Positions 7,374 through 47,800 of a DNA stretch of 64,000 bases are shown here, piece after piece. Source of the DNA: Hygrocybe punicea (Eukaryota > Basidiomycota > Agaricomycetes > Agaricales > Hygrophoraceae); assembly GCA_963556145.1 (NCBI GenBank), contig OY744463.1, positions 1,426,001 to 1,490,000 of the forward strand. The letters are read 5' to 3'. The notes under the pieces were generated by a model that worked only from the letters and a program-made list of their open reading frames with translations, was not told the DNA's origin and made no database searches. Position numbers and translations under genes: made by a program. Within the stretch, counting starts at the first letter, position 1. Each line of letters starts with the position of its first letter.

Positions 7374-7375
7374 AC

Positions 7376-7880: not shown

Positions 7881-7920
7881 TTGACAGTCTCTTATCCCAA
7901 CAGCAATTGAACTCACTCCT

Positions 7921-22077: not shown

Positions 22078-22579
22078 CACTGCTGACACTGCACTATTTT
22101 GCAGGATGCAAAATGATTGCAAAATGATTGGAAGCCTGTTAAAGTTTTGCATTTGATTTTAAACCATGCAAAATCCAATTAAAATTTCACACATAATAAC
22201 TCGTGAAATTCTATTTAAACACAAAGATTTGTGGGAATTTATCTCGACACAAAATTAATCAAATTCAAAAGTATTGTTCTGAGTGAAAATGTAGACAAAA
22301 GTGAAAGTTTTCCCATACCTTGTCAGCTGTCAAAATAATTGTAAAAAATATCAAATTCAATCAATTTTGCAAGACGTCAAAATCTTGTTTATTCAACCTC
22401 ACCAAATGCAGAATTTTGGCCAAGGATTTTGCAAGTCACAACATTCCATATTTCACAATAAGATTTAGCCTTTGCAAAATATTTCGGAACTAAATCATTT
22501 TGCATGGCCCATAATGCTTCACACACTCAAGTGTGTCACTGATCACACACTCAGCACACACTGAGGAGGCACTTGAGTG
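22078..22579 (+). repeat. Left 502-bp TIR of giant CACTA-like element
   Basis: CACTGCTGACACTGCAC ... GGCACTTGAGTG; aligns with the reverse complement of 47136-47637 over its whole length. Rich in TTTTGCA words near the outer end. The inner end carries CACTCAAGTG / CACTTGAGTG in inverted order, able to form a small hairpin. Confidence 0.9.
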
Positions 22580-23196
22580 ACAAAATGATAACATTCACAC
22601 ATGGATGACGCCTTGATATTCATTTAATTTAATGCTACGTCATACAACTAATTGGGCCCTAAACCTGTGCTGGCAGATCAATACACCTGAAGTTGAGTCA
22701 GCACCATTCACCAAGGCAGGATATGGCTGCTTACACGTGACATTGATATAACGACCTTGACATCCTGCTCCTCCCAGTTTGATAACAGGTAGGCGAAGTG
22801 GGCATGGATGTGATTTATGGAGATGATTTCCAGATCAGCCAGTTGCACACCCCACATTCGAGCACGGAGTACGGGAAAGACCTCAAATGGATCATCAACT
22901 GCTGATGCAGGCCTAAGGTGTTGGATGGTGACGTGGGTAGCTATGCCTTGTGGGGTGGGCAGTTGCACAATGTATTCAATGTGAGCCGGAACTGGATCAC
23001 TTTCCACCTCTGTCTGTACAAGAATGCAGGAATTACCCTCATGTTTAGATGACACAGTATAGGTGATGCCATGGACCGTCAGATGGGAGAGAAGCTGTGC
23101 CTTCTTTGGCGGGCCAGAGCCTAAGGACACAGCCAGAGCATGACGGAGGCCTGCAGGCATAGAGTGGGCTGTGTTTTCATTCCAAGTAGCTGCATC

Positions 23197-24115
23197 TAGG
23201 GATGACCACGGGTTTGGGTCAACCCGCGGTATTACCAAAACGGGTTGCGCGGGTACGGGTAGGGTGTTTGGTTTCGTCACCCATGACCATACCATGACCC
23301 GTACCCGCGGTTTGGCGGTGTGTCATGGGTTCATCACACAACCACCACAACCACCTCGATGGCTACGACCAAGGGCGACCAGACGACCGACTGGAACAGT
23401 CAAAGGAAGGAGCAGGGAAGCGGCCGGGGGGTGGTGCTCCCACTTCCCGGCCTAGGTAAGTCTCAATTTCTGATCAAGTAATGAACTGTAGCTAACTACG
23501 CTATGACAACAACAACAACAACAGCATGGGGCAACAGCACGCAACGACAACGACGCGTCGCCCTCTCGTCCACCTCGCGGACACGCAACAACAACAATGC
23601 ATGCCCCTCTCGTCCACCTCGCGGACAAGCAACAACAACAACGCACCCCCTCTCGTCCACCTTGTGGACACGCAACAACAACAACAATGCGTCCCCCGGC
23701 CTGGGCCTTTGTCCACCTCGCGGACACGCAACAACAACGCGTCCCCCTTCGTCCACCTTGCGGACACGCAACAGCGACGATGGCGACGCGTCCCCCTCTT
23801 GTCCCCCTCTTGTCCACCTCACAGACACGCTACAACGCGTCCGACGGCACATGCCCCCCTTGTTCCCCATGTTGATCACCTCGCGGACAAGCACGTCGCG
23901 TCAATTGATGCCGGCGCTGCATCTGTGAGGTTGCAGAGCGGAACGGGGGCTGTGGTGGATGGCGGGACGCGACGGTACACCACAGGTAAGGTGTACCGTC
24001 ATGACCCGTGGATGTTCGGGTGCGGTGCGGGTCAAAACCGCCCCGGGTAAGGTGTTCACGGGTACGGGTGCGGTGTCAGCCGAGCCGACCCATTCAAGAC
24101 CCATGGTCATCCCTA
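23197..24115. mobile_element. hAT-like non-autonomous element (TAGGGATGACC family), copy 2, inverted
   Basis: Same TIR as 11107-11941, opposite orientation. Perfect 8-bp TSD GCTGCATC (23189-23196 and 24116-24123). Internal minisatellite of about 43 bp built on GTCCACCTCGCGGACACGCA plus CAA runs, about six units (23560-23830). An exon-like piece ending GGAPTSRP (about 23430-23455) precedes GGTAAGTC. Inserted in the transposase gene. Confidence 0.9.
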
Positions 24116-26092
24116 GCTGCATCTTCTTCATGGGTCACGTCCCAGCCCAAGGATGCAGTGAGCATGTCGGTGATGAGTGAGTCGCAGACCTGGGGGTTCA
24201 AAAGCTTCTCAAACATTACTTGGCAATGTTGCAGGGCTTGTGGGCACTGGGATTTGCATAAAATGCTGCATAGGTTTGCAGATCGAGTATATGACCTGGA
24301 CAAGGTCTCCTCTAATTCACCTACGAGTTTATCAGTACATTTGGGGCCTACAGGTTACTTACTGCAGTGCTCACCCATTTTGCTGCTGGTAGGAATTCGA
24401 TGAAGCGTACCGATAATCCGCTCAAAAGGAAATGTCCACCATGCGTGGAGAGGGCCGTAGAGTAACAGGTACTCATGTAAATGAAACGCCACATGATGAT
24501 TTGGGTGGAAATGGTATTCGGGGAACAACTCCTGGATCCCGTGAAGGTATGACTACAAATGCTGCAGGTACAGGCCAGCGTGGCGGTGGGAGGTTACTCG
24601 AGAAGAGACAATGACTAAGGCTGAAAGAAGGGATATGGTGACAGAAAGAATCTTGCTGCATCGTTCTGAGCGCTCATTCCCACTGTGGACTTTAGTCCAA
24701 AGGCGAACGAGTGACACGGGCAAATAGGTCATTCCCAGTACTCGCCATTGATCTGCCTTTACCTTTCCATGAGCAGAAGAGCCCAAATTCTGGGGAAACG
24801 AAGTCACCCAGCTTGGTGTCACCATATTCCTGATATCAGACCAGATCTCCTCCATCTCCTCCGTCGTCAATACATGGCCATGGGCAGTTGATGTGTTGGC
24901 ACCAGTCTCTCGCTTTTCTGGTTGAACTTGACACTGTGGGGTGAAGATAAGCAAGCCATTCAGGTAGTCAGGAAGGGCAACCTACCCAGGCGAGGATGGC
25001 GTCAACCCAGTCAATTTTTGAAGCCTTTCGATGCAGGTCCAAATGCACCACTGGGCACTTGAGCTTGGCACAGGCAAATTCAAGGGCACGCGCATGGCAT
25101 CTCATGAACTTTTGGACAATCTTTGGGTGGTCGGCCACCAGTTCAGGTGTCATGGGGCCTTGTAGGTATTTTTGAAGCTTTTGGACGCTCTTCTGCTCAT
25201 TGGGAGAGAATTCCTGCCAAGTGGAAGAAAATTCGATTGTTACCACCGGCAGTTCCTCTGCTTTTTTCAGGCGAATGCCAAGAATCCCTTCAAAGTGCTC
25301 TTTGATCAAGCCCAGGAAGAGGTTGTGCATGCCATCAACTACCACACAGCAGCCAATGTCGAAATAAGGCAGTCGAAGTAATTCCGACCAATGAATGCCT
25401 GACTTGTCGAAGAGTGCCTGTCTCGCCTTCTCATCACCTGCACTGCAGTACTGTTCAGCGCAAGCCTGGCAGTCAGCATCGGAGTGTCGGATCCAAGAGT
25501 CGTAGTCCGTGTTTTCATAGCCATGTGTGGCTCGAGTGCAATGACAGATGGAGCAGAAGTGATCATGAGAGAAAGCAGCAAATCCCCCCACTTTTCTTGC
25601 AGCAGGGAGGTCACAGATCACTACGACCAGTGCACAGCGCACCAGTCGGCCACCAGGATGGCGGTGAGTGCACGAGAATTTGACCCCAGTCACCCAAAAG
25701 TCCAAGAAGTCATCGATGAGTGGGGTCAGGTAATGGTTGATTGCAGCGAGTGGAGGTTCTTTGGGGCCAGGAATGATGCCAGCCAAAAACATGTTCTCTG
25801 GCTTGTAACGCAATTCAGGGGGAATGTTGAGGCAGACCAGGGATATGAGGCCAATGGAAGCCTTCTTTCCGGCCTGTTTATTGGTATACGGGTTGAAGAA
25901 GTCGACACAAAGACTAAATACGTAGCGGCCTTCGTCACCCCCAACACTGAAATGCTGCTTGTCAGGGCATTGGAATTCACGAAGGAATGCGCCGTCAAAA
26001 ATGTCATGCATTTCATCCACACTGCCAGCTTTCCTCATCCAGGAAGAATCCATGCAATCCTCCAACCCAGGTCGAGAAGTCAGCCCAGCTAC

Positions 26093-27708
26093 TGTTACGG
26101 ATCGCTTCTGCAGCGGGCTCCGGCAACAATCAACTTAACTAGGGATCGGATTCCAGAGGAGAGGAAAGCAGTTTTCATTGTTGCTTACAGCTAAGACAAC
26201 ACTGCTAAGAGGAGGGGTCAAGGTCTAATGTCATTGCGAGCCGTGGGGGTTACCCAAAACAAGATGAGTCTGCCCCAAGAACCAGACTAAACGTAAAGAA
26301 AGGAAAAGAAGAAAAAGTCCGAACCAACAACAAGGACAGTAGATATAGTGAATGGACTTGAGGGGAGGTAAATGGGAATCCAACCATGAAGCTACAACAT
26401 GTCCAACTACACCATGTTTTCACCATGAGGCGGACATGAGGCATCCTCATGTCGATGTTCTCGCGATCCAACTGGAGGCCCGGGTGTCATTGAGGAATAG
26501 AGGGGGTCTGGATGACTCGGATGATTTGTCATCGGATCATGTGATGTGCAGAATTGCCTATTCAGGGTCTACACTTGCTGTAAGAGGCAAGTGCGCAGTC
26601 TGGCAAGTGCATTGCACGGTCGGGTCGAAGATGGGTATCGTCCAGTGTAGGATTGGTGATGAGAGTGTCCTGAGGTAGCGGGGACATAGCGACAAGGTCG
26701 GTATAAAGGAAAACAAAGGAATGTATGGAGGGAAAACCAACTAGGATGGTGGGATAATCGAGGTCAGACATGTGAACAGCATAAGCTGTACCGGATGATG
26801 ATGTCTGTGTTGATGACGTATCAAGGAGCAATGTCTTGTCCTGTCTGTGGAACAACGCGATCCACCTGATGTCGGTATTCGTCCAAGAAAGGGTATCATT
26901 GTAAACGAGTGTGGGAGGATAGATGGAAAAGGATAAATGAACATGGGTCCAGGTTTCGAGTCATGGCATGAGTGACAAGCTGTGGGAACAAGTCGTCGGG
27001 TACTGCATTGAAGCGGTGTCGTGCGAACAATATACAATAGGGGTTGGTTCACTGTTTGGGAAGTCGTATGGTCTGTGGTCGAAGTCCAAAAGAGTATGCT
27101 CCAGCAATGGTCGGATTAGAGAGAACAGTGAAATGTCCTGTGATTGAGGATTGTTCAGAGTTCGCATGCAGGTGAGGAATGTCATCGGATCATCAGGGAG
27201 GATAATGGTAGGCACAGGGTATGAATATGGAAACCAAATATCCGGGAATGGCAATTGTCAATTACGTGTCGGTATACTGTCGAGGCGGATGTCGGTTTTA
27301 TCAATGAAGGAAGGTTGCCTTTTCCAGAGGCAAATCATGACGATGTAGAAACCGATCAGGAAGGTGATTGCTATGGCACCAATGATCATTACAGTTATGA
27401 ACTGTTTGGTGAGGATAGCCATTGTGCGTTGGTTTGGGAAGACAGTATGTTGTACAGCGAAGACAATGAAAGTGACGTCCGTTGGCAAGGCGACTATTCG
27501 GATACAGCAAGGTAACGTGGGTGTGTCCATGGTCGGTCTGGATTGTTCTAGAAGAAAGGATGAAAAGGGAACAAGAACAAGAACAAACAACGATGTCCAA
27601 AAGAAGACAAAAGGTAAAGGGGAACGAAAAAGGATGGTATGGTAAAGTGGAATCGTCATCGTGGGTAGCGGAGTCGGGATCGGAGTTGCGGAGTTGAAAA
27701 ATGTAACA
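26093..27708 (-). mobile_element. Solo LTR, family C, inverted
   Basis: Plus strand starts TGTTACGGATCGC and ends AAATGTAACA. Perfect 5-bp TSD GCTAC (26088-26092 and 27709-27713). Inverted relative of 14008-15641. Its removal rejoins DFKDWVA to GLLTSRPGLEDC of the TNP2 transposase. Confidence 0.9.
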
Positions 27709-28939
27709 GCTACCCAGTCCTTGAAGTCGAAGGAAACAAATGTTTTGATGGGAACCTGGATCTCCTCACCCATAATCGCCTGGGGCTTGGTCAAGCGTTC
27801 CTTGCAACGTGGGTTGCCACGAAACTCCTGGTGAGTGCAGTGTTGTGGGTATTGAGCAATGGGTGAGTCGCCTTCGAAAGTTGGCTTGTAGGTGCGGTGA
27901 CATTTTGGATTCGGGCAGACCGCATAAATGACGCTCTTCCCATCCAGATGAAAGTGGTCCACGGCGGAGCGAGGATCGACTGGAAAGTCGGACATAAGCT
28001 TTTGTTCTCGAGGTGAAAGGCGGGGCCCAGCCCTCATCAGGGTGAGCTGGATGACGTACTGCAGCATTGAAAGCATGAAATGGCATCCGCGACGCCCAAC
28101 GTTCAGCACCACCTGGCAGGCAACTACCAAAAAAAGGGAGACTTGAAGAATGGGGTCGACATGCTGAAGGAAGGGTGTAAAGTGATGGTCGGTTTTCAGT
28201 TCGTGGTTCACCTCCCTGCGGTGCTGTGCCAATTTCTGTTTCCACTCCTGTTTGCCTCAGTCCAGCTGATGCTGGACTTCATCCAGTCACTCGCCAATGG
28301 ACCTCTTGGTTTCAACCACCGCAGCTTGCTTCCCTTTGACAGTGTCCAATTGATTTCGGAGCTCGGTGCAGGTTGACAACAGCGGATTCAAAGGAGGGGG
28401 CGATGGCAGCTCCCCAGGGTGGTTTCGTAGTTCCGTGAGGGCTAGGGAGACCTTCCGAGCCAAGTCCTTCACAGACGCCTCGATCCCGACCAGGCGACGG
28501 ATGTGTGAATCCACTCGGCTGCGTTGAGAGGGTTGGGGACTGGAGGGGCTGGGTGCTTTCGGAGCATGGGGGCGAACGTGGGGGTGGTCTGCTGCGATTG
28601 AGGGTTCTGGTGAACCGAGTGATAAATTCTGCGAGGTCATCGCCGAACCTTGTGAAGCTGGGTTGGATTTGGACCAAAGCCATCCGCCTGGTTGAGTAAA
28701 CGCCCCGGAAACTTGGTCTGCGAGGGTCATGGATGCCATGTATTGGGCGATGTTGGCATCGCGGGCATCTATGGCACGCCGGGTGGCATCGCGAGCAATC
28801 GTGGCACGGTCTTGGAGCTGGTGGGATTTGAAGGTGTGGTGGTCCACTGGTACTCCTTGTGGAGAATTCGTCGTGGGGTCGAGGCCTCCCTTCGTGGCAC
28901 ACCCGAAGGAGGCACAGAAGCAGGTCAGCATGCGGAGCT

Positions 28940-29800
28940 AATGAGGCGAAAGCGGTGGTTCTTGGCAACTCAGACGAGAGAGTATGGCTCGGGAAATAGA
29001 GCAAGAAGACCCGTCCTTGGATGCCAAAGCCACGTAACGAGGAATCCGGGAGGAGCACTGAGGTACAGGAAGTGGGATTGGTGTCTGGGGAGCCCAAAAC
29101 ACGTCAGGGTGTGAGTCTGGAGAAAAAGATCATGAGCTCAGGAGCGGGACTTCGGCCAAGCATCTGCGGTGTCTCAAAGCTTGCTGGCCCACTCGGTCCC
29201 AGGGTTGATCCCTGAGTGGCCCAACGAGCGGCAAGAGGCCAGCAGAAAAAAAGCACTCACGCGCAGGAATGGGGCGATGAGACCACGCCAAAGCCGTGTA
29301 GGGAGGAATCCGGGGGCGCTGACGCGTAACGGGGAATCCGGGGGGAGCACTGGTGGAAGAGGAAGCGAACAACATGTCTGGGAGCCCAAAACACATTAGA
29401 TAGACAATGGAGGAGGCAGTGGGCGCGTGTCTGGGAACCCAAAACACGCTGAGGAGAAGGAGAAAAAAACAAAAAGCCCCAATAAGGCAAGCCCACCCAA
29501 ACAAAGACAAACAACCAAAAAAGGTCTCAACGCCTTGCCTTCTAAGTTCTTCATCAGCGTCTTATGGGTTCCCAGAGATGCTGAGCCCACCCCTCATTCC
29601 CTCGTCCGTTGCATGACCCGGGAACATTTGCCATCTGCTCCCCATCACTTTGCTCGAACCGCTGGCCATACATCCTCGCTCACCAAATCTTCAGCATCTT
29701 ATGGGTTCCCAGAGATGCTGAGTTGGCTCCTCACTCCCCTTCTTTGCTTCAGTCACGCAAGTACTTCATTTCATTATCATGCCATGCACTTTAGTACAAG
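28940..29800 (-). promoter_or_regulatory. Intergenic module P1, upstream of the transposase gene
   Basis: Contains repeats TGGGAGCCCAAAACAC and TTCCCAGAGATGCTGAG found also at 34200-35430 and 42030-43120. In each place the module lies between the stop of one gene and the start of the next; here, between the WD40 stop (29806) and the transposase ATG (28931). Probably promoter plus transposase-binding repeats; inference from position and copy number. Confidence 0.55.
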
Positions 29801-29805
29801 TCGTT

Positions 29806-31631
29806 CTACGCCTCCACGATCTCTGCTGTTCCTTCAACAATCACTAGCTTTCTCAGTCCCAACAGTTGCCTAAGTTTGTCTTCGTCCATGTCAGCGAACG
29901 GCGTCCATGGGTCTTCGAGTTTCTTCTCGAAGACGGGGATTTTGTGCAATTTGAGGTTCTCCTGAATGACGGCGGTGACCGATCCCGCACCCTACCCATG
30001 CTATCAGAGCAAGAAAGAGCGAGATGGATCAAATGTACCTGCACAAATGGCGGCATCCAAAAATTTGACGTCAGGTATAGAATCAAGAACAAAACCAACC
30101 CATTTAGCACAACCAACCAGTCTGAGAGCGTATGGTCCGCCTTCTTACGTTTGTTGGTGGCCTGCTTGGTCTGAGACAGTGAGTACTGAGCACATATGGG
30201 CATACACGGATACTCACTGGTTTCTCCCAGATGCATATGTCGAAACAATTTTCTGACAAGCCGGAGGCAATTAGATGACGCTCAGGAGAGGAGATGGCCT
30301 AAATCCAATCTAATGAAGAGACTTAAATTGACTTCTCATTGGTTTACGTACCTCAACTGTCTGAATCAACGCCTGGCCTGAATTCATCTCCATTCATTAT
30401 TGCTGTGCAGTTTGACTGATGAACAACTCACCTCCATCGTGACACAAGGTCTGGACAACCCCTTCCGAATTTGTGTTGAAGAGGTAGACATTACCGTGAG
30501 CACTTCCACATATGACCACATTGGCCTGCTCGGCGAAAACCCCCTTCTTCACGTATCTTCGAGTGACTGCCACGCTGAAGGATCGCATGGGAGAAGTCTG
30601 AGTTATGTTATATAAATCAAATCCTGTGCTCAAGTTGTCAATGAGGACGAATTTTTCTGATGGGCAGACACTAGCATTCCCTCTATGAAATTCACCTCAG
30701 TTTGCTGGACATTCTTCACATCAAATCACTCACATGCCAGACTTGAACACCTTGGACCATTTCTTGATGGATGTCTCTGCATCTTGACAGGAACTAGCCA
30801 AACGAGGATCAGCAGGACACTGTGGCCAGTATATACGTTCACTCACACTTCTCCGGACTCCAAACTGAACACCAATAGGTTCTGATAGCCACTCATGAAG
30901 TGGATAGTGCGAGGGATGGTCAGGTCCAGCACGTGCTTATTCCATAGGCTCGTGAGAGTACCTGTATTTATCTAAGCATTCTTTTGAAGTTTCCTTTACT
31001 CCGAACTCACCGTTCTTCTCCAGGCAATAAACCTGAACCTGACCATAGTTACTCGATGTTGCAAGTCGGCTGCATGTTGGATCAAATGCCAGGGCCTCGA
31101 CACTGTCACTAACAGCAAATGCGTGGGTGTTTGACAACTCCAAGAACTTGCCCTGACCTTCATCAGTGCCACCGTTGAATGAAATGAGGGGTATACTCAC
31201 CCCAAACCTGCTTTGGCGATATACTGACACCATTCCTCTTCCAGTTCCGAAGCAAAGTGTTTCGCCCGTGACTCCAGCTTCAGAAGCTAGCCACTTTATA
31301 CAGGTGATTTGCCCCTACTTTCCTCCATTGTCATGGATCACCTGGATGCATTTGTATTTTTCTAAGATCCAAACCTGAATGGCTTCATCATCTCCTACAT
31401 CACGTCATCAGTGCTGTGTTCCCAAATCACTGGTCTCCCTACCTCCACTTGCAAGTTGTTCACCATCGTGAGCGAAGGCAAAGCAGTTGATGGCCGCAGT
31501 GTGGCCAGCAAGCTGTCTAGCTAGTCGATATTGCTGTCTGGAAATAAGGCAATGAATAAGCTTGGAGGAACCAGACGTACATCTTTTTGCACAAAAATTT
31601 GATCCCAAATTTCTTGAATGGTTGACGGCAT
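29806..31631 (-). pseudogene. WD40-repeat protein with C-terminal membrane helix
   Basis: Minus-strand, several short introns. Possible start MPSTIQEIWDQIF at 31631. Blocks in order: QYRLARQLAGHTAAINCFAF then DGEQLASGG (first WD40 blade, about 31440-31540); EAIQVWILEKYKCIQVIHDN; LCFGTGRGMVSVYRQSRFG (about 31200-31256); VEALAFDPTCSRLATSSNYG; IPRTIHFMSGYQNLLVFSLE; STGFDLYNITQTSPMRSFSV and ANVVICGSAHGNVYLFNT (about 30460-30640); a hydrophobic helix VVLNGLVLFLILYLTSNFW (about 30050-30110); and a tail ending LVIVEGTAEIVEA, stop at 29806. A TAG at about 31342-31344 replaces the Trp expected in GKWGQI, so this copy is probably broken. WD40 propellers bind protein partners. I recall this build as a common Agaricomycete repeat family; its role in the element is unknown. 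Confidence 0.72.
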
Positions 31632-31987
31632 GAAAGAGTATTAGGATTTTCTGCACCGATGGCGTATTCAGTATATATACTCAAAATATATAATTGTGTT
31701 CTCCATTCTTTTGTGAGGATGAACAATATCATTCTGTTGTGACGTCGTGTTGGCACGCTTATGAGAACATAACAAGGACACAAATAGTTCACCATTTAGA
31801 GAATTATCATACAGAAAATGACTCAAAGGGGAACAAGGATCATAAATAATAAATAGGGACTCCATGAAAGTGCACCTCAGAAATAATGCAGACCGCTGGT
31901 ATTATTTGCCGACATCTACCACTCATCACAGGACGTATTATATTCACAACCCAGAGACTTCCTGACCCACCAATGATCACCCCACAG
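31632..31987. promoter_or_regulatory. Divergent promoter region
   Basis: About 350 AT-rich bases between the diverging WD40 gene and the gene starting at 31988. No coding. Likely holds both promoters; no specific site recognised. Confidence 0.35.
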
Positions 31988-34142: not shown

Positions 34143-34154
34143 GTTTCTAGAGAT

Positions 34155-36407: not shown

Positions 36408-36563
36408 TGTAGTAGTGGTGCCTGTCCTATCACGTGACCTCAGTCCCACGGTTGGGTCCCTTATCTAGCAGTTGCCTGTAGTAGACAGTTCTCTATCCCA
36501 TCCACCTTGACCTTTCCATGCGATTCTGTCCCTGATCCCGAGAGGTCCCTCGGGACCACTCCA
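36408..36563 (+). repeat. 5' LTR, family D
   Basis: TGTAGTAGTGGTGCCTG ... CGGGACCACTCCA; direct repeat of 38010-38165. Confidence 0.93.
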
Positions 36564-36566
36564 TCG

Positions 36567-36591
36567 TGGTGATGAGAGCGCGATTCGAGCC
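36567..36591 (+). other. Primer-binding site
   Basis: Begins TGGTGATGAG three bases after the LTR; its 3' part GCGATTCGAGCC is the complement of a tRNA T-arm (GGCTCGAATCGC). A 25-base stretch thus matches the shape of a tRNA 3' end with CCA. I cannot name the tRNA. Confidence 0.75.
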
Positions 36592-36633
36592 ACGCCACTG
36601 GAGACCACACCATTCCACTCGCACAGACCCTTT

Positions 36634-37866
36634 TTGAGTACAGCAACAGAGATTTTCAAGCACAGAGAACACCCCCGAGAGCCCACCCGCGCGATTCCAC
36701 GCAGCACCCCAATGCAAAACCATATAAAAAACAGTCTCCGAAGGCCCAAGCGTTACGTCCGAATCATTCTACATGCCCCGCAACCATCTTCACGAATTTT
36801 TGCCCATCCTCACCAATCTGCACAGCCACCTCGCGCAGCCACGTCACCAACTGCATCCACCAAGAATCCGCCCACCCACGCGCACCCACAGCACCCCACC
36901 CTCGTTAAAACACCCCCAAGAGGTTGCCGAGCCGGACGACGTATCCAACAACGCCGTCGCGCAGCCAGGTGCGCCCTCGATATCACCGTCCCCGTGTTCG
37001 ACTCACCATTTTTCATTCAGACGCCCACAGGTTCACTACTGAATACACAGACGCTCGAGACCCCCCTGCGTTCATACAGCGGCCCCACGAGCCACTCCAT
37101 CACCTACCCCGTCTTCGGCATCTCCGTTTTCACGCCCACCCATCCGTTGCCACGTCGCCCAACCGCCACGTCACCAAATCGACTGGCAAACCTCGCCCGC
37201 ATCGGCACCTTCTTCCTCGATCCCATGGGCCCGGCGCAACACGCCCGCGTCCACTCCCTCGCGCCTGCCGTCTCCGTACCAACCCAACGGCCCATACCCA
37301 CGCAAACGATGCGTCCAAACCCACCCAACGAAACGCAACAACGGGCTACCCGCGCGAGAACCCACGAGCCCCACGCCGGCTCATTTCTCGGCCCCATACG
37401 CCCATTCCCAACGCGATCAAACGCCCCCACGCAGGAACCGGGCAACAAAGTCGACCCAACGCGACCGGCACGCCCCACCCCACCATACCCCATTTCCACA
37501 CACACGGCCCCACGTCCCACACCCCCACGAGTCTACGCACCACCACAATGGCCCATCCCCGCGATACGACGACCCCAAGCGATGTACCCGACGTCGCAAG
37601 TCCATCCGCAGCACCCCCGAAGTCAGATCCCCCATTGCCTCACCCACACGACGTACCACGACGGCCGTACCCCAAACGGACGCGTTCGCGGCCCTGCCCA
37701 CGCATCGTATGGCGGCCCCACATCCCCTCATGTCGACTCACGCCCAACGACCCACCCACCGACTCCGCGCCGTCTCATTCTGCCCCCTTTTCCACATTCT
37801 ACCACTGTTTCCCCACCTTTTTTTCACCATGATCCACCATTATTAGATCCATCTGGGGTAGACTAG
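36634..37866 (+). CDS. 410-codon Pro/His/Arg-rich ORF of the family D LTR element
   Basis: Open from MSTATEIFKHREHPREP to DPPLLDPSGVD. Very rich in Pro, Thr, Arg and His because the plus strand is C-rich and G-poor. No Gag, protease, RT or integrase motif. A second plus frame (36924-37832) is also long and open, which suggests the openness follows from base composition. It may be translated or may be only packaging/spacer RNA. Confidence 0.3.
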   Translation: MSTATEIFKHREHPREPTRAIPRSTPMQNHIKNSLRRPKRYVRIILHAPQPSSRIFAHPHQSAQPPRAATSPTASTKNPPTHAHPQHPTLVKTPPRGCRAGRRIQQRRRAARCALDITVPVFDSPFFIQTPTGSLLNTQTLETPLRSYSGPTSHSITYPVFGISVFTPTHPLPRRPTATSPNRLANLARIGTFFLDPMGPAQHARVHSLAPAVSVPTQRPIPTQTMRPNPPNETQQRATRARTHEPHAGSFLGPIRPFPTRSNAPTQEPGNKVDPTRPARPTPPYPISTHTAPRPTPPRVYAPPQWPIPAIRRPQAMYPTSQVHPQHPRSQIPHCLTHTTYHDGRTPNGRVRGPAHASYGGPTSPHVDSRPTTHPPTPRRLILPPFPHSTTVSPPFFHHDPPLLDPSGVD

Positions 37867-38009
37867 TCTGCCTGTTTTCTTTTCTTTTCTTTTGTGTGCT
37901 TTGTGTTCCCTTCTGTTTCCTGCTTTCCTTCCTCCCCTTGTTTCTGCTCTCTTTGTTTTGCTTGTCTTTTGCTAGCGACGAGGGCGTCGCTATGAGAGAG
38001 GGGGGCACT

Positions 38010-38165
38010 TGTAGTAGTGGTGCCTGTCCTATCACGTGACCTCAGTCCCACGGTTGGGTCCCTTATCTAGCAGTTGCCTGTAGTAGACAGTTCTCTATCC
38101 CATCCACCTTGACCTTTCCGTGCGATTCCGTCCCTGATCCCGAGAGGTCCCTCGGGACCACTCCA
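38010..38165 (+). repeat. 3' LTR, family D
   Basis: Follows the tract GAGAGAGGGGGG (37994-38005). Near identical to the 5' LTR. Confidence 0.93.
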
Positions 38166-38842
38166 CCGGTCCAGGTGAACAATCGTGAGCACACTTGGGC
38201 GGCTGAGTCGCTGTTAGGCAATCCACACCTCCAGCGACTAGCAAGCTCGGCCAGCGGTGAGTCCCAGGGCCATCATCTAGGGAACTGCATTTTGACCTCA
38301 TACTCCAGCTGCTTTTGCCCTGTGGGCACCCAAAATTTACCAGTACTACCAAAGCCATTTGGAACCACTTTACTCTCGGATGCCTCATCTCCACCGGAAC
38401 TTCAATGGCAGCATCTTCCCAAGCGCGGCCTTCAATTTTGGGCCCAACGTCTGGACATTTAAGCACCGGGACAGCATGAACTGTCCATTTGGATGGTATC
38501 CAGGCTTTGGGTCACTTCGATCCCAAAGCTGGAGGCCACCTAATTCTGTGGGATCTAGGGTTGGTCATAGAATTTCCCCCTGGTGCTCTAATCCTAATCC
38601 CATCAGCCATCCTCACACACTCGAACATCCCAGTGCAGCCTGGTGATACCCGGGCATCCTTCACCCAGTATTGTGCGGGTGGTCTTTTTCGCTACGTTGA
38701 CAATGGTTTCCGAACAGAGGCCCAATTGCGTGATGAGGATCCTGCTGCCCTGGCTCAGGCACTAGAAATGAAGAAAACTCGTTGGGAAATGGGCCTTGGA
38801 CTTTTCAGCACCCTGGATGAATTGTTGACTCAGGTAGAATAG

Positions 38843-39794
38843 GTAAGTGAAATCGACAGGTTTGATTTCACCACTATTGACCCTGATTCCAGTGATTTCA
38901 TGCAATTAATTAAAAGTTTTCAACACAGTAGATAAGAGCAATTTTGTAAGAATTAGAAGTCGATCAAAGTTGCTTTGAATGATGGACAAATCTCTTTCTG
39001 AATGCCAACCCCTTTGGAAACTGCAAGGGGCATTTCTGCTGAACACATTCCACGAAACTGAGGTGACGAGGTGAGCAGATATGAAGTGGCAAGGAGAGGG
39101 TAGTTCACCTCTTTACTGCAAAATCTGCCAAGGCGGCATCTCTACTGCGCATGTTGACTACTTTCTGAGTTTTTCCAAGTCGCATGACAATGATGTCGCC
39201 CCTCCAGCGGAAGCCAGGTGCAATTCCTACCAACACTTTATTGATGGGCAGAAGTCAATGGTTCTTGCAAAATATTTGGAAGGTATAGGCGTGGTTTGCT
39301 TCATAAATGGTGACCAGACAGTCATGGATGAATGGCTGGGTTTTTAAGTGGGCTAATGCCCCTTCGAGCAGAGGAAACTGGCGTGTGCCACTTTCATGGG
39401 TTGGGATCTTGGTGTAGATAGGACGGCGTGACGATGACGCATACAGACATGCCCGTATTTGGAAGTAACGATCCTATGCAGTATTGTATTGACAGGCTTA
39501 ACTAGCGGCATTGGAGACTTACTTTGCTGGTGGGTGACATGGGTGTGCGGAACGAAGGCATTTTAATTGACAGAGATGATGACCCACAGACCGTTTATTG
39601 TGGCCCTATAAGCTCAAAATTAACAATTATTACTATGCCCACAGGAAGCTATTGTCAATTCCTTTGGCTTGAAGAAATTTCCTCCTCGGTACCGCAATGA
39701 TCCGAAGAAAAATTTTCATCACAATTAACTGGCAACACAATAAGTAAGCTGTAGAAAAAGGCGATTTTTACGACAGAATCATCCTCCATTCACC
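38843..39794. other. Intergenic, no clear gene
   Basis: AT-richer DNA between the oxygenase and SSDES genes. An 88-codon frame at 39081-39347 contains LYCKICQGGISTAHVDYF but I recognise nothing in it. It presumably holds the promoter of the next gene. Confidence 0.35.
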
Positions 39795-42027
39795 ATGTTT
39801 AGCATGTTGAGATTTTCGGCTACTGCTACTACTGCTGCTGCTGCTGCTACTGCTACTGCTACACCTGTAAATGCGCCAGCTATGGGAGCAAGCTCCGGGC
39901 CCAATGCCACCATCCAGGTGAGAACCACTGAATCCACCAGAAATCTAACATATCTGATCCATCTTCATACCTGCAGCCACCACCACCCAACAACCCCATC
40001 GAGGTAGGTGCTAGTTGTAAGCAGGACCAGTCAGGCCACCAGGCCGTGCAGATGGATCCAATCAATGGTGGATCCGGCAGTGGGACTGCAACACCAGCAG
40101 CTGGGCCACAACTTTGACACCCTAGCCCAGCAGGGAGTGAATCCAATGACAGTGGCCGATGACGTGGTCAGGTGAGATGTGTCTTTCTGGTTCACTTGCA
40201 GTCAGTGCTGAAGGTAGTGGGAAGAGTTCTGCACAGAAGGTAATGGTCGTCGAACGAGAGTGTTTACAAACCAGGAATCGGTTGGCAGAACATGAGGCCA
40301 TGATCAAGCAGTTGCGTTTCGAGGTAAGCTGTGCTCCAGCGTTTGGGATGGCAACTCATGGAGGCACCCCAGCTAAAAAAACGTCAACAAGGCATCCCGG
40401 CGTTTGTTGATGCACTTGAGGAATGATTGAGAGTAGCAGAAAGCACAGCTCAACTGGCCGAAAAATGGGCGCAGCAGGTGGAACAGCTACTTCAGAATGC
40501 TCAGCAGGCCAGGAGCAGCCATTGCGGTGCAGAAATGCCACAGGATATTCGTGATGGCGACGACATGGTTATGAAAGAGGCTGCACAGGGTAGAGAGGAG
40601 CCCCAGGTAGAGTCTGATGATGACCATCATATGGTGAGAACCAAGAAATAAAACTAGCTTATGACTTATTTGTCGACCCAGGGTGCTCCAAATGATAATT
40701 CAGCGCAAAATGTGCCGCCGCCGATGTGGTTTTCAAGGCCACGGTTAGGGGCAGGACCTACCCTCAAGGCCACGTTCAAGCCACAGCCACTCTTTCACCC
40801 CTCGGCTTCACCTGAGCCAAATGCGTTGCCGCAGAAACAGGTTGGCACCAGGTCGTCAAATTAATCCCTGCTGATGAACCCGCCAATAGCTGGAAATGTT
40901 AGAGCAGAAAATGGACTGGTTGCTCGCCAGTGTTCAAGAACTGAAGTTTGGATGGCCTCAGCCAGGCGCCCCTAGGCCTCGAACAACCTGAAGACTGCCA
41001 GCCCACCGATTTAAGCCAGCACCAATGAGAAACTGCAGCCCCTTAAGAACCGGGAAACTGGTGAGTTGCTTCACACTGCAGGCGATGAAATGCCAAACCA
41101 GAACTTGCAGAAAGATGTTTGAACTGCCATGAACAAGCTGTTGGGCATTGAACATGACAAAGACGCATTGCACATCCTTCCTCCACCACCGGACAACCTT
41201 GACCGGTATGAAGATGACTGGGGTGGACCAGGACCCTCCATATGCCCCATGACGCCTGACTGGGGCAATCTCCGTGGAGAATGGAACTACCGACTATATG
41301 AATTGTTCATCAGTTATGTTGAAGCGCCACCTCCTGATGGCTGTGGATATGCCTTGGATGAGGAGAGTTGCGTTGAAATTCACGAGATGTTCTTCGGGCG
41401 ATTGTATCACCTCAAGCGGGAGATGCAGGCTGCATCCCCCAAATCTGGAGAGAGAGAACACCAAACCAGGGAACGCCTCGCCCAGGCCAAGAAGTCTGCC
41501 TTGACGCGGCAAAGGCCAAACACAAGACGCAAACAGGTGAGCAAATCCTTGCACATGGCGTAGCATAAATGCCAATCAACGGATAGCTGTTTGACAGCAG
41601 GCTCGAAATCACACTGAGCAACAGAACGACACCCTCTGGAGAGATTGAGCCAGCTTGGAATTGCATGTATGAGGTCATTGACCAACTCGATGCCCAGGGC
41701 ATGAGCTCAGATGAAAGCGATAACGACGAAGCAGGCAGAAAAGTCTATGTTGCAAGAAAGAAGGCTTGGCGTGATAAGGAAATTACAAGACTCCTGAGGT
41801 TAGTCGATCGGGATAACAACATGAAACATTGCTATGGCAACACCAGGGCTGGGAATCCCCCCCACCATCGTGTGGTTCGAGGAGGAAAGGAGAGCAGGCG
41901 CGAGGCACCTCCTGGCCTGCCATTGAATTTCTACAATCGGAACTGGTATGCAGAGCTGACAAACCAAGAGAAGAAAGAGCTTGGGGCCACGAAAGAGGTC
42001 GAAATGCCGGACATCATGGAGGCATAG
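39795..42027 (+). pseudogene. Coiled-coil / SSDES-motif cargo protein
   Basis: Start ATG 39795 (MFSMLRFSATATTAAAA), followed by several introns (for example 39916-39976). Blocks: a coiled coil VMVVERECLQTRNRLAEHEA (about 40243-40320) and QLAEKWAQQVEQLLQNAQQA; a Pro-rich part; TAMNKLLGIEHDKDALHIL; GEWNYRLYELFISYVE and PPDGCGYALDEESCVEIHEM (41277-41390); RQRPNTRRKQ then an intron; MSSDESDNDEAGRKVYVARK; YGNTRAGNPP; GLPLNFYNRNWYAELTNQ; end DIMEA at 42027. A TGA at 41120-41122 interrupts KDV*TAMNK, probably CGA to TGA. I recall this block order from unnamed Agaricomycete repeat proteins; function unknown. It lies in the plus-strand run of cargo genes. Confidence 0.62.
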
Positions 42028-42029
42028 GT

Positions 42030-43221
42030 CCGTTTCTGAATAATCTGTACTAATTGATATGAATATGGAGCATTTGCATGACTAAGGCAAGGTTTACCAA
42101 AAGAGAATGAGGAGCCGGGAACGACGCTGAGGACTTGGTGAGCGAGAACTTAAGGCCAGCGGTTCGGGGGTAAATGCGAACGTTCCCAGGCAACCCAAAG
42201 TACGAGGGAATGAGCGGTAGGCTCAGCATCTCTGGGAACCCATAAGACGATGAGGACTCAGTGGGCGAGGACACGTAAGGCCAGCAGTTCGAGTGATTCA
42301 ATGGGGTGAATGGCGAATGTTCCCGGGCGACTTGAAGATGAGAGAATGAGGAAAAGGAATGAGGGAAAGACTTAGTGAGCGAAAGGGACAGAGTGAGGAG
42401 CCGACTCAGCATCTCTGGGAACCCATAAGATGCTGAAGATTTGGTGAGCGAGGACGTACGGTCAGTGGTTCGAGCAAAGTGACAGGGGGCAGATGGCAAA
42501 CATTCCTGGGTCATGCGACGGACGAGGGAATGAGGGGTGGGCTCAGCATCTCTGGGAACCCATAAGACGCTGATGAAGAACTTAGAAGGCAAGGCGTTGA
42601 GACCTTTTTTGGTTGTTTGTCTTTGCTTGGGTGGGCTCGCCTTATTGGGGCTTTTTGTTTTTTTCTCCTTCTCCTCAGCGTGTTTTGGGTTCCCAGACAC
42701 GTGCCCACTGCCTCCTCTGTCGTCTATCTAACATGTTTTGGGCTCCCAGACACGTTGTTCACTTCCTCTTCCACCAGTGCTCCCCCCGGATTCCCCGTTA
42801 CGCGTCAGCGCCCCCGGATTCCCCCCTACGTGGCTTCGGCGTGGTCTCATCGCCCCATTCCTGCACGTGAGTGCTTTTCTTTCTGCCCACCTCTCGCCGC
42901 TCATTGGGCCACTCAGGGATCAACCCTGGGACCGAGTGGGCCAGCGAGCTTTGAGACACCGCAGATGCTTGGCCGAAGTCCCACTCCTGAGCTCATGATA
43001 TTTTTCTCCAGACTCGCACCCTGACGTGTTTTGGGCTCCCCAGACACCAATCCCACTTCCTGTACCTCAGTGCTCCTCCCGGTCAGGTCTTCAGTTTCCC
43101 AAGCATGTTTTGGGCTCCCAGACACGCCTTCCTTCTTCGCCCTGATCTTGCCACGCCCTTCAATCTTTTTGCGTACTTTTCCCGCCATCACCTCATCCCT
43201 TGTGTTGGTTATTTGGATGTC
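42030..43221 (+). promoter_or_regulatory. Intergenic module P3, upstream of the last cargo gene
   Basis: Third copy of the module. Repeats of ATCTCTGGGAACCCATAAG (about 42226, 42412, 42548), then GTTTTGGGTTCCCAGACACG (about 42682), TTTTGGGCTCCCAGACACG (about 42735 and 43107) and a related GTTTTGGGCTCCCCAGACAC (43028). Ends just before the ATG at 43222. Confidence 0.55.
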
Positions 43222-46200
43222 ATGTCTGCTCCACCACAGCCGCTGGACCACTCTGAAGGATGGGCGCACCTCCTGAATGGGGTGCTTTACTACTCCCCCA
43301 ATTCCTCCTGCAGTATATCCCCTCCTCCACCCAAACTGCCTCACCTCCTCATGACCAACGTTTTCCAGACCCGATCACCCGGCCACCTGCAGGATTACCA
43401 ACATCCCCGGTGGTGGACCTCAGCGTTCGGTTATCTGAGCTTCTTGCCAGTCCATCCCTCATTCAGTGGCTATCCATTCGACCACCTCGCCCACATGCCG
43501 CCCCTCAAGAAGGAGGAGGGGGGATTCCGCCTTCATCCCTACCTCGCCAGCCATTGGCTTCGGCTTGAGCAAAGGCTGGTCCACGCCATCGCCTTGTTGG
43601 CACAGAAATACCCTGTTGCTGTCCTACCGCCTTGGCACCCCTCTGCATGGGGCTATGGATGACCTCACAAAAGCCACTACATCGCGCGATGGCGTGCCAT
43701 CATTTCGAGGGACTGGTTTGTAGTTTTCATGGCTGCCCTCTCCTTTCTCATGGCTGCAGGAGAGTCACACTTCCGCGATGCCCTCATCCCGGACTGGTTT
43801 ACCCGGTTGGCAGAGGCTGGCTTTGACCAGTCCTGGTTGGCAGGGGTCGCTTCGTCTTCTGTCCACACCTTTTCGTCATTTGCTCCTCGTGTAGGGGTCT
43901 TCCTAGACCTATTAGATCCCGAAAAAACGCAACCAGCAGTGGAGTGGTTCTGTCATTACCACGTCCCTGTTTGGTATCCTTGGAGAGTGGAAGAAGCACA
44001 AGCCATTCGCCAGCACATCTGGCTCCAGGGTTTGGCTCCTCCTCCCCATAAACTACAGGACGCGACCACTTTCTTCACCTCTGCTCCCTCAGCATCTTCG
44101 CATCTCCTCACCACGGCGCCTTCAGCTTCACAGGACCCCCAGGACCGAGCAAGCCCAGCTCTTTCCAGCACCCATCCCATGAAGGCCCAGCCCACATGGA
44201 AGGACTTCTTTGCTGAGCGCGAAAGGATGAATGCTCAGAAGCTGGAGAAGGAATCCCCTTCAGCTCATCAGACTCGGTTGAATCGTGAGCGCAACCCACC
44301 CACCATCAGCACGAAAGTATTTGAATGGGTCAAAAGCGATGAGATTCCTTCGCAACTCATACGTAAGGCGGTTCTGCAGAGTGCAAGAGAAGAAACGTTA
44401 GGGAATTATGGGGCAAATCAGCGACGCTATGATGCCTTCTGGAATGAATGGGACTGTTGTGAGGAGTTTGGGCCAGAGGATGACCACAACAATGAGGACA
44501 ATGATTACAATGAGGATTTCTGGGGGCCACGGCAAGAGGAGATTCAACCAGATCCTGATCACAACCCTGGAATCCGAACCCAGAGGTCACTGTCACCACC
44601 CCTCATGGCAGATGACATTCAGCCCGTGAAGGAAACGCCAGACTAGTGTTGCCGTAGTTCGGTTCCGAACCTAGCCGAACCCGGTTCAAACCCCGAACCG
44701 AACCCTAGGTTCAGTCTAAGTTCAGCCAAGTGCTGAACCGGACCGCAGTTTCAGTTCCGGGTTTCGAGGCCTGCCGGATTTCCTGAACGGCTCCAAACCG
44801 CGTCCAAACCGCGAACGCGGATATTTTCAAGGTATTTATTTCATTTGTTTTTCATATTTCTTTACTTACTTTTTCGTGGTAAACAGTATCATGTGACCAT
44901 TACACGAAGTTTCTTCACCAACAACAACAACTTGAACGCAAGGCCAATGAACGCGACACAATGTCGCGTTCATGGACACAGGTAAGTTTTATCATTTATC
45001 TTAACTTTACTAATATTATCTGTTACAGGAAACTCGACCACGACCACATCGCGAGCACACCACTGCGGCACAAAATGGATCCCAATGCCAACGCGATGCC
45101 AATGGACACGGGACAGCCGCAACACCACCACCACCACCACCACCACCACCAGCGGCGGCAACGGCAATGGCAATGGCAACGGCAACCAGGCAACGACAAC
45201 GGCAATGGCCAGCAGCAGCAGCAACAGCGGAAGCAGCAGCGCCGGCAGCAACGGCAGCAGCAGCAGTGGCAGCGGCAGCGGCAACTGCAAATGCCATCCA
45301 ACATCACCACCAGCGGCAGCAACAACAATGGCAAGGACAACCACGACGGCCAGCAGCAGCAGCAGCAATGCTGGCAGCAGCAGCAACAGCGGCAGCGGCA
45401 ACGGCAACAGCAGCAGCAGGAGCACAGCAACAACAGCAGCAACGGCGGCAGCAGCAGCAGCAGCAACGGCCACGACAGCAGCAGCAGCATTGGCAGCAGC
45501 AACGGCGACGGCAGCAACAGCAGCAGTGGCAGCGGCACCGGCGACGGCAGCAGCAACGGCCACAACAGCAGCAGCAGCAACGGCGGCAGCAGCAGCAGCA
45601 GCAGCAGCAGTTGCAGCAGCAACGACCACGGCAGCGGCAGCAACAGCGACAGTGGCAACGGCAACGGCAGCAGCAGCAGCGCCGGATGGCTCCCCCGCAG
45701 CCCAACTACCTCGTGAAGTGAAGCGCCGTATCAATTGATACGTGCCTGCCATTCACGAGGAGAACAGAGCTCATGGGGTGAGCCCATCTCGGTCCGGGGT
45801 TCAGACCGCGTCTGAACCCAGACCGAATGCGGACAGACGGTTCGATGCCGTCTGGGTCCAGGTTTGGCCCAGCGCCAAACCGGACCCGAAGTTCGGTTCG
45901 CGGTTCCGCCAAAAAGGGTTGGAACCGGACCGAACTGAACTTCGGCAACACTACGCCGGACATGTACAAAATCGTGCACCTGTTATCCATGCACCACGGA
46001 TTCGTGCCACCAATACCGGTTCCCCATCAGGCTCGCCCCATGGAACCCCAGGCCATACAGGCCTTCCTTCACGCAGTCGGATTGACATGACAGGATGATC
46101 CCATCTTTGCGACGGGTCTCGATGCGATTGCCTTAAATCTTTTTGAAGCCCTTGTCTCGGGTCTGCAACCTGAGCAACCTTTGTGGGACTTGAGTCGGGA

Positions 46201-47076
46201 CAGCCGCCAGCCTGTGGTCCTCACAGATCACATCAAGCGCCTTTGCCATCTGCTGTCTTGGCTTTATTTCTTTGACTTTGGGCGAGCTGCGACCGTCCCA
46301 TGGAAGATCACTGTCTCTCAACCTGCTGACATGCTTTACATCTGCAGATTGGATGTTGGGTGTCAGGAAGTAGACATTGCTCGAAACCTTCTGCAGAGGG
46401 GAATTCAATTCCGAACTCTTCACCCCCTTAGGGAAATTCCCAGCTCGCCGTCATTCCACCCCTCCACCGTTCCCATTCGACTCTCCGGGTACAAATTCTC
46501 AAGAAGAGACCATGACGCATATCTGCACCAGCGTGCCATGATCTTGAGTGGTCATGGGGGTCGAGCAGCACTTCTCCGAGGCGGGGTTTTGTGGCGTCTG
46601 GCTGTGCAGGAAACAAGCTTCCACACCGTCTTACAAGGCCCGTCATCTGCGGTACTCCTGCATCGGGATGGGTTCTCGGTTCAAGATAGCAATTCGGTTG
46701 ATTGCCTCTGGGATGATGACTTGAGCGAGGATGAGATCCTTTTACTTTGTGGGACGTATATCTGTTACACCGGTATGTTTGTGCTTTTAATTTACCAAAC
46801 CTGATGGGCTCCCTGTTAGGCAATGGCGCCCAGACCGCCACGGTGTCTTGGTTTCCCCTGCCCTGGACGTATGATGCAAGTGGAGAAAACTATGGGCGCT
46901 GGACTGAGTGGTCTGAAATGGTTTACCAAACGTGGTTGACCAGAGTTGAGAAGGGAGAGCCACCACTTCCTCAACATCAATGGCGAGATCGATTAAGGGG
47001 GCACCACAAATCTCGCAAGCTCAAGCAGGCTATGTCTTCCATTTCCAAAGGTTTCCTCAAAGATGGTGGGTCGTAA
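43222..47076 (+). pseudogene. Unknown cargo protein (MSAPPQP family), split by a hAT-like element
   Basis: Start ATG 43222 (MSAPPQPLDHSEGWAHLL). One frame runs 43222-44643 except TGA 43660-43662 (GYG*PHKSHY, likely CGA). Blocks: NVFQTRSPGHLQDYQHPRWW, YPFDHLAHMP, LASHWLRLEQRLVHAIALLA, then RDWFVVFMAALSFLMAAGES (hydrophobic), VEWFCHYHVPVWYPW, a Ser/Ala-rich linker, KAQPTWKDFFAERERMNAQK and an acidic stretch. The hAT-like element 44644-45953 is inserted; without it the frame goes KETPDMYKIVHLLSMHHGF. A second TGA is at 46088-46090. Then YFFDFGRAATVPWKITVS, ILLLCGTYICYT, an intron 46773-46819, GNGAQTATVSWFPLPWTYD and stop at 47076. I recall this as an abundant unnamed Agaricomycete family; no function is known to me. 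Confidence 0.65.
44644..45953 (+). mobile_element. hAT-like non-autonomous element (TAGTGTTGCCG family), copy 2
   Basis: TIRs as at 32235-33658. 8-bp TSD CGCCAGAC / CGCCGGAC (44636-44643 and 45954-45961, one change). Same outer parts and intron (GTAAGTTTT ... CTGTTACAG, about 44982-45028). The middle is (CAG/CAA/GGC)n triplets (about 45120-45690) of different pattern from copy 1. Its TAG end supplies a stop codon to the gene it hit. Confidence 0.9.
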
Positions 47077-47135
47077 ATTTTAGTCCTCTTACTTAGCAAA
47101 TGAAATAAAAAACCTTTACTCCACTCTCAGGCGTG

Positions 47136-47637
47136 CACTCAAGTGTTCACTAAGTGTGTGCTAAGTGTGTGATGAGCGACACACTTGAGTGCGTGAAGCA
47201 TTGTGGGCCATGCAAAATGCTTTATTTCCGAAATATTTTGCAAAGGCTAAATCTTATTGTGAAATATGGAATGTTGTGACTGGCAAAATCCTTGGCCAAA
47301 ATTCTACATTTGGTGAGGTTGAATAAACAAGATTTTGACGTCTTGCAAAATTGATTGAATTTGATATTTTTTACAATTATTTTGACAGCTGACAAGGTAT
47401 GGGAAAACTTTCACTTTTGTCTACATTTTCACTCAGAACAATACTTTTAAATTTGATTAATTTTGTGTCGAGATAAATTCCCACAAATATTTGTGTTTAA
47501 ATAGAATTTCACGAGTTATTATGTGTGAAATTTTAATTGGATTTTGCACGGTTTAAAATCAAATGCAAAACTTTAACAAGCTTCCAATCATTTTGCAATC
47601 ATTTTGCATCCTGCAAAATAGTGTGGTGTCAGCAGTG
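47136..47637 (-). repeat. Right 502-bp TIR of giant CACTA-like element
   Basis: CACTCAAGTGTTCAC ... GGTGTCAGCAGTG; inverted copy of 22078-22579, same length. Followed by GTT. Confidence 0.9.
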
Positions 47638-47800
47638 GTTGGAATTTTCCACTATGAAATATCATCTATGCTGCAAGGGAGAATATGTTTGCTTGGCAAT
47701 GAAAAATCTTTCAAACACAGATGTTTACTGCACACTACTTGAATCGTATGAGATTAGTATGGCTGATGTTCTTGCTGTATTTATAACTCCCCTGGGAATC
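47638..47800 (+). pseudogene. Tc1/mariner-like transposase, right part (continued from 22077)
   Basis: Joined to 22077 across one GTT the frame reads DYNPIELEFSTMKYHLC, GEYVCLAMKNLSNTDVY and TLLESYEISMADVLAVF. This is the expected C-terminal course of a Tc1/mariner transposase after DYNPIE. The end of the gene is blurred near 47800. Confidence 0.75.

Follow-up and report, generated by a model that had tools for sequence, protein, structure and literature searches.

A CACTA-type transposon with seven genes, a predicted TET/JBP oxygenase and inversion isomers in Hygrocybe punicea

The element and its insertion site

The stretch examined here, hereafter the window, comprises 64,000 nucleotides of the Hygrocybe punicea genome (Agaricales; assembly GCA_963556145.1, contig OY744463.1, G000:C3:1426001-1490000) and contains A1, a large transposon with long inverted ends, three internal repeats and seven genes (Table 1). 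Relatives of A1 were sought in the whole assembly (92.2 Mb, 42 contigs) and are located by contig handles (C1, C2 and so on). The original prediction, made from the letters alone, had described a CACTA-like transposon with inverted repeats of equal length (502 bp) ending in CACTG and CAGTG, a perfect flanking 3-bp GTT and a transposase pseudogene that becomes one frame when the segment is removed, and each of these observations is confirmed. The two arms, each of 502 nucleotides, are 96% complementary, with CACTG at the left terminus, CAGTG at the right and GTT on both flanks, and TGCAAAA occurs 8-10 times per end in A1 as well as in B1, a diverged copy. In-script removal of A1 and one GTT rejoins a Tc1-like transposase frame (...DYNPIE-LEFSTMK...), itself a pseudogene with other stops in frame. 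When we searched the genome with a 375-base query spanning the closed junction, two paralogs were recovered, at C35:924822-925171 (91%, query 6-352) and C34:4496916-4497270 (90%, query 1-352), both of which continue across the junction without interruption and represent the empty sites that the prediction had proposed to look for. The genome was searched after a paralog within the window, at 53.5 kb, was rejected as an empty site, as it does not span the junction. Because the frame rejoins on removal and two paralogs run uninterrupted through the junction, the boundaries of A1 are exact.

Table 1. Features of A1 (window coordinates) and positions of its copies elsewhere in the genome
Feature	Position	Strand	Remarks
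Left target-site duplication GTT	22075..22077	.	empty paralogs agree
Left terminal inverted repeat, 502 bp, CACTG start	22078..22579	+	TGCAAAA 9 times, both strands counted
G1 Tnp2 (Transposase_21)	22711..28937, approximate	-	PF02992, ORF 24968-26134
Nested insertion 1	23197..24114	.	11-bp shared word at ends; interrupts G1
Nested insertion 2	26092..27707	.	7-bp shared word; interrupts G1
R1, first internal repeat	29033..29736	-	beside modelled 5' side of G1; palindromic sites
G2 WD40 protein, cassette X	29850..31640	-	PF00400
G3 ~197-aa protein, function unassigned, cassette X	31988..34142	+	gene models
Nested insertion 3	32234..33659	.	8-bp shared word; in modelled intron of G3
R2, second internal repeat	34517..35220	+	related sequence ~34310-35431; beside modelled 5' side of G4; palindromic sites
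G4 predicted TET/JBP-fold 2OG-Fe(II) oxygenase, cassette Y	35650..38842, approximate start	+	
Nested insertion 4	36408..38166	.	159-bp direct end repeats, 5-bp shared word; interrupts G4
G5 small protein ~134 aa, function unassigned, cassette Y	38970..39543	-	gene models
G6 coiled-coil protein ~578 aa, cassette Y	39786..42027	+	relatives often near Tnp2 genes
R3, third internal repeat	42391..43082	+	beside modelled 5' side of G7; palindromic sites
G7 large protein ~700-900 aa, fold unassigned	43390..47079, approximate	+	gene models
Nested insertion 5	44643..45953	.	5-bp shared word; second copy of insertion-3 type; interrupts G7
Right terminal inverted repeat, 502 bp, CAGTG end	47136..47637	-	
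Right target-site duplication GTT	47638..47640	.	
A1 (window copy)	22078-47637		order Tnp2-X-Y-G7
A2	C36:4520074-4532564		without G4-G6
A3	C41:2476269-2503535		all seven genes covered
A4	C36:5958266-5974466		without G4-G6
A5	C8:4972133-4990761		all seven genes covered; 18.6 kb
A6	C36:5495030-5565991		subfamily A inverted pair
A7	C41:2575312-2608137		all seven genes covered
A8	C2:2300743-2314742		without G4-G6
B1	C35:3850787-3873125		all seven genes covered; G3 and G6 only in part
Abbreviations: aa, amino acids; ORF, open reading frame; 2OG, 2-oxoglutarate.

A common set of seven genes

Gene models were made on A5 and B1 with a home-made codon-score gene finder (GT-AG introns, trained on conserved ORFs), and the call of seven genes combines these models with protein-level matches between copies. 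Gene limits in the window are approximate, with those of G2, G3 and G5 and the start of G6 mapped by hand (G2 from the A5 model). Within G1, the ORF matches PF02992 with an E value of 5e-15 (55.7 bits against a cut-off of 28.6), while G2 of A5 matches PF00400 with 37.2 bits (cut-off 27). G2 and G3 make up cassette X, and G4, G5 and G6 make up cassette Y, which is missing from A2, A4 and A8; the full set is covered in A1, A3, A5, A7 and B1. Because A1 combines Tnp2, CACTG ends and 3-bp duplications with same-genome relatives that carry the whole or most of the gene set, it is an element of the CACTA/EnSpm type, as first proposed.

Between A5 and B1, the ratio of nonsynonymous to synonymous substitution rates (dN/dS) is 0.20, 0.25, 0.23, 0.13, 0.25, 0.18 and 0.24 for G1 to G7, and four of five control frames lie at 0.66-2.25. 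Judged by these ratios, the same seven genes are under purifying selection in the fuller relatives. For G7, an AlphaFold2 model of the homolog P0121 (predicted local distance difference test score 75.0, predicted template modelling score 0.54) gave no PDB match at E 0.001 by Foldseek, nor was a sequence match found. A protein search with G6, whose sequence has low-complexity stretches, gave no match at E 0.001 among 7992 candidates preselected by shared words.

Backbone and nested insertions

Comparison with the other fetched copies reveals five segments that are extra in A1: wherever one of those copies retains the surrounding part of the element, the insertion is absent from that site. Each of the five has a shared word of 5-11 bp at its borders. 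Exons are hit in G1 (twice), G4 and G7, and a modelled intron in G3. Together these later insertions account for ~7 kb of the 25.6 kb of A1, leaving a shared backbone of ~18.5 kb. At least one stop is present in the aligned exons of 7 of the 8 fetched copies, the eighth, A5, being the reference. Interrupted by five insertions, A1 could move, if at all, only with proteins from other copies.

At 11106-15643, upstream in the window, there are inverted relatives (82-98%) of the insertions 23197-24116 and 26091-27716. Insertions 3 and 5 are one element present twice, rich in CAG/GGC-type triplets and with TAGTGTTGCCG / CGGCAACACTA near the ends. In B1, G6 carries a 3.5-kb insertion (L028-L030, C35, element positions ~6036-9559), whose long open frame we take to resemble a hAT-type transposase.

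Copies and distant relatives in the genome

At least 43 matches to the left end are present in the genome, a lower bound obtained by scoring 40 of 59 candidates. Eighteen near-full-length ends fall into a close subfamily, A (ends at least 95% identical), and resolve into eight inverted pairs (12.5-71 kb) and three ends of truncated elements. These three lone ends (one on C33, two on C40) retain neighboring genes. The second end of A4 is found in two pieces, with its outermost bases unmatched. A second subfamily, B, is ~80% identical in its ends. Exact 3-bp duplications flank 7 of 11 end pairs (A1, A2, A5, A6, A8, B1 and a 0.8-kb element on C1), with the C7:2911754/2990136 pair left out of this count. 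Outside CpG, seven close copies are 0.24-0.95% apart. Two rearranged loci were also seen: the ends at C2:4272028 and C2:4337948 represent an element end inside a large inverted duplication, and at C40:5084899 and C40:5156358, the left and right halves of subfamily-A elements, both with their ends on the minus strand, are separated by ~71 kb, which looks like the result of a rearrangement that split them.

The original prediction had set a lone 502-bp repeat at many sites, each with its own duplication, or the lack of a second copy with the gene set, as signs of error; neither pattern is seen, as A3, A5, A7 and B1 also cover all seven genes. Its span and class hold for A1, with the qualification that 25.6 kb includes the nested insertions. 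Its six genes become seven, among which the WD40, oxygenase and coiled-coil genes are indeed found, and the check that it proposed, for the same genes in the same order, finds the gene set or most of it in other copies, with the order changed by inversions in some of them.

Subfamilies A and B are not equally diverged along their length. Positions 43221-47637 of A1 are 88-91% identical to B1, compared to 70-81% for the longer matches of the rest, and the synonymous divergence (dS) between A5 and B1 is 0.16 for G7 versus 0.42-1.51 for the other six genes. On the basis of this low dS and high identity, the two subfamilies have probably exchanged the right third of the element.

A more distant element-like locus is found at C39:4712-4737 kb, with relatives of Tnp2 (36%, main exon), G2 (31-36%), G3 (29-55%), G5 (33%), G6 (27%) and G7 (61-73%) as well as R-like inverted repeats. 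G4 is represented there only by a 67-residue match to its R-side first exon, and element ends were not found at this locus. Outside subfamilies A and B, 25 of 43 G6 places have a Tnp2 place no more than 20 kb away, versus 0.75 expected, from positions entered by hand and a random control in which two contig sizes were guessed. The 43 G6 places are all rows outside A and B minus two second fragments, and 5 WD40 places follow the same rule; 39 Tnp2 and 36 G7 places remain from 106 and 108 rows, respectively, after A/B rows, second fragments and weaker rows were dropped by eye. Because of this excess, the placement of G6 suggests an old partnership with Tnp2. Two further sites, C7:960459-969433 and C41:2101030-2117711, each have a WD40-like gene between a pair of G6-like genes in inverted orientation, which may be a third architecture of this system.

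Internal repeats and inversion isomers

The internal repeats R1, R2 and R3 are ~95% alike and hold palindromic sites, some of which have 9-bp dyad arms in A1. The 10-base palindrome TGGGNNCCCA occurs 15 times in A1 versus 0.64 expected from resampled sequence, and 15, 10 and 12 times in A5, B1 and the far C39 locus, respectively. In the 38.3 kb of the window outside the element, it occurs 0 times (1.16 expected). Genome-wide, the 17-mer TCTTATGGGTTCCCAGA has 61 occurrences, compared with 0 for its reversed control. Their coordinates place 50 of them between paired ends (A1-A8 and C39:5534973-5566664), another 6 in the stretches fetched for the far C39 locus and for a truncated C40 element, and the last 5 within 1 kb of those two stretches. 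The palindromic sites of the internal repeats occur rarely or never elsewhere in the genome. In a comparison of 17 R copies, which left out one short copy, the copies within each of A1, A2 and A3 cluster together.

Among the eight fetched elements, A1 and A2 share the order Tnp2-X-Y-G7, with Y missing from A2. Cassette X is inverted in A3 and, with Y missing, in A4 and A8; in A5, A7 and B1, X and Y are inverted as a single block. At the level of intervals, all of these order changes map to those holding R or R-like sequence. Judged from match coordinates, the A5 state is the one that A6 resembles, as do the B members on C39, C3 and C6; the B member on C1 looks like A1, and the one on C34 like either A1 or A3. 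In the tree, A7 is the sister of A3, with a support of 0.991 when CpG sites are masked and of 1.0 when every site is used. These two copies are only 0.24% apart outside CpG and yet differ in isomer state; A4 and A8 are not grouped together, with weak supports in that part of the tree.

A predicted TET/JBP oxygenase and a trace of methylation

A fold search finds the TET/JBP fold in the model of a G4 homolog, and G4 has the HxD...H iron triad and 2OG arginine that go with it. HxD is present in 32 of 32 aligned G4 homologs, the nearest of which are 48-49% identical, and in both gene models (A5, B1). G4 does not have the HxE in place of HxD that characterizes the PE type. At the AG-type positions (CcTET 331 and 337: Gly, Asp), it has N348 and C354, both invariant, as located by plain offset from HxD rather than by structural superposition.

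Among subfamily-A copies (seven, or four for cassette Y blocks), CpG transitions make up 67% of 5783 pairwise differences, and CpG cells show 22.5 times the rate of other C/G cells, with pairs that are not independent in both figures. This is the pattern left by deamination of methylated CpG, and it fits exposure of the elements to cytosine methylation, like that of other repeats.

Comparison with known elements

Starships are tyrosine recombinase movers of Pezizomycotina with variable cargo. Like A1, they occur in fungi, span tens of kb and contain many genes; the A1 family differs in its Tnp2, its long inverted ends and a shared gene set that is under selection, and no captain tyrosine recombinase was matched by Pfam among the 10 ORFs and 6 gene models scanned. 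Membership in Plavaka was likewise rejected, given a PF18759 score of 15.8 bits (cut-off 26.3) and CACTG ends rather than TGT..ACA or CATCA..TGATG. Kyakuja, Dileera and Zisupton are fungal DNA transposons that carry TET/JBP genes, and they are described in the available parts of PMC12730594 with a different transposase and duplications of 7-8 bp, as opposed to 3 bp here, which excludes A1 from this group.

A close likeness is to the EnSpm elements with a TET/JBP gene reported from Agaricus bisporus (Agaricales) and Puccinia in the sections covered of Kojima 2025 (PMC12730594), which share CAC..GTG ends, 3-bp duplications, an EnSpm-type transposase and the TET/JBP gene with A1. According to the same sections, the TET/JBP gene of EnSpm outside rusts is of the PE type (HxE), and the AG type, with HxD, is confined to Kyakuja and Zisupton, unlike A1, where an HxD oxygenase lies within a CACTA element. 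The term WD40 is absent from the main text of that paper, and neither inversion isomers nor internal site arrays were found in its sections covered. The En/Spm families of the red alga Chondrus crispus (16-20 kb, 4-5 ORFs; Kojima et al. 2013, cited in PMC6431247, as far as the passages available go) are also large with several ORFs and are likened to A1 by size and ORF number only. The original prediction had placed five extra genes far outside the usual; that holds for a typical CACTA element, but both the Chondrus families and the TET-bearing EnSpm elements are precedents. Transposase_21 proteins of TRC/CACTA elements, as in A1, are known from Coprinopsis and Phanerochaete (DeMarco 2006, PMC1636069), where the passages available give no fungal accessory gene set and report 2-bp duplications for animal elements. 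We found no published seven-gene CACTA element or fungal CACTA inversion isomers in a search that lay outside subscription papers, preprints and supplements. Relative to the literature covered, and as far as these papers go, the novelty lies in the seven-gene set, in the isomers, in the arrays of private sites and in the occurrence of an HxD TET within CACTA/EnSpm.

Proposed mechanism and alternatives

DNA transposons usually carry one or two genes, and CACTA/EnSpm elements have a second, TnpA-like DNA-binding protein and repeated binding motifs near their ends. We consider it likely that A1 represents a CACTA-type transposon with 502-bp ends, a 3-bp duplication and seven selected genes, moved by Tnp2 through cut-and-paste and equipped with a predicted TET/JBP oxygenase that would relieve silencing. 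Under this model, Tnp2 would excise and insert the element, and G4 would oxidize 5-methylcytosine, leading to demethylation and relief of silencing. G6 and/or G7 may be the TnpA-like partner that reads the palindromes and the TGCAAAA-rich ends, and the internal repeats may serve as shared promoters. Ordinary homologous recombination between R copies would then explain both the flips and the deletions of cassette Y. A bolder version, which we offer tentatively and regard as rather doubtful, is that of a self-regulating shape-shifter, in which a programme of the element's own (mover, anti-silencing TET enzyme, WD40 hub and DNA-binding partners) would be wired to three private regulatory hubs, and recombination between hubs would flip cassettes and reset the co-driven genes copy by copy.

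Several observations weigh against this model. The introns and starts come from the home-made gene finder, the dN/dS estimates skipped codons with a stop in either copy, and one antisense control frame is also low (0.27-0.34). The roles of G2, G3, G5, G6 and G7 are putative only. G4 scores below the Pfam Tet_JBP cut-off (PF12851, 14.8 bits versus 34.9, E 0.017), and a search of its sequence profile against PDB sequences found no TET, just three chance-like matches; its fold is assigned because the fold search settled what the profile search had left. The CpG bias is the same in other repeats of the window and so marks repeats in general. Once a single mismatch is tolerated, A1 has only a small excess of the 10-base palindrome (24 versus 18.3), and the exact 17-mer is absent from B1, which has related sites, and from most other B members. 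For A4, A5, A7 and A8, R copies from one element do not cluster together. The isomers are read from the assembly, in which the flips could be misassemblies. Finally, an exact 3-bp duplication is absent in 4 of the 11 end pairs (A3, A4, A7 and C39:5534973-5566664), and the C2:4272028/4337948 pair was dropped from that count, as its flanks are reverse complements.

The alternative with the most in its favor, though we judge it improbable, is that the element has a dedicated site-specific inversion system, with the internal repeats as its sites, and that flipping is a programmed switching of genes relative to promoters. The order changes of the eight fetched copies fall in R or R-like intervals, the palindromic sites are restricted to these elements, with 9-bp dyad arms in some A1 sites, and sister copies differ in isomer, all as such a system would have it. 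However, a Pfam scan of the proteins recognized no recombinase besides Tnp2, the crossovers are located to R-holding intervals rather than to a point inside R, and the repeats, at 0.7 kb and homogenized in three elements, look as homologous recombination or gene conversion would leave them.

A1 might also be a nested pile, in which unrelated transposons later accumulated in a short CACTA element that also captured fragments of host genes as passengers. Captured gene fragments occur in plant CACTA elements. They are also noted for large DNA transposons such as Helitrons in the passages available of PMC6431247, and five nested insertions do exist in A1. We reject this reading as very improbable, because none of the other fetched copies has those insertions at the same sites, whereas the remainder is a backbone common to close copies and the diverged B1, with dN/dS of 0.13-0.25 for every gene; furthermore, relatives of Tnp2, G2, G3, G5, G6 and G7 lie at the far C39 locus at ~27-73% identity. 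Least credible of all is domestication by the host, with a gene set that works for the fungus and ends that survive as relics. Low dN/dS in all seven genes would agree with it, but the seven close copies are young and scattered with target duplications, and nearly all fetched copies have stops in aligned exons; this is the pattern of a mobile family.

If the transposon model holds, seven selected genes, one of which encodes a predicted methylation eraser, make an arms race between a transposon and cytosine methylation testable, as copies with and without the TET cassette exist in one genome, less than 1% apart outside CpG and marked by CpG decay. For a search for the DNA-binding partner, the element-restricted palindromes offer a concrete starting point, and the inversion isomers illustrate how the gene order of a transposon can be changed by the element itself.

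Another feature of the window

Downstream of A1, positions 57102-62985 hold a 2055-bp inverted repeat with ~99.8-100% complementary arms, 1774 bp between them and repeats spaced 34 bp, possibly another young element.
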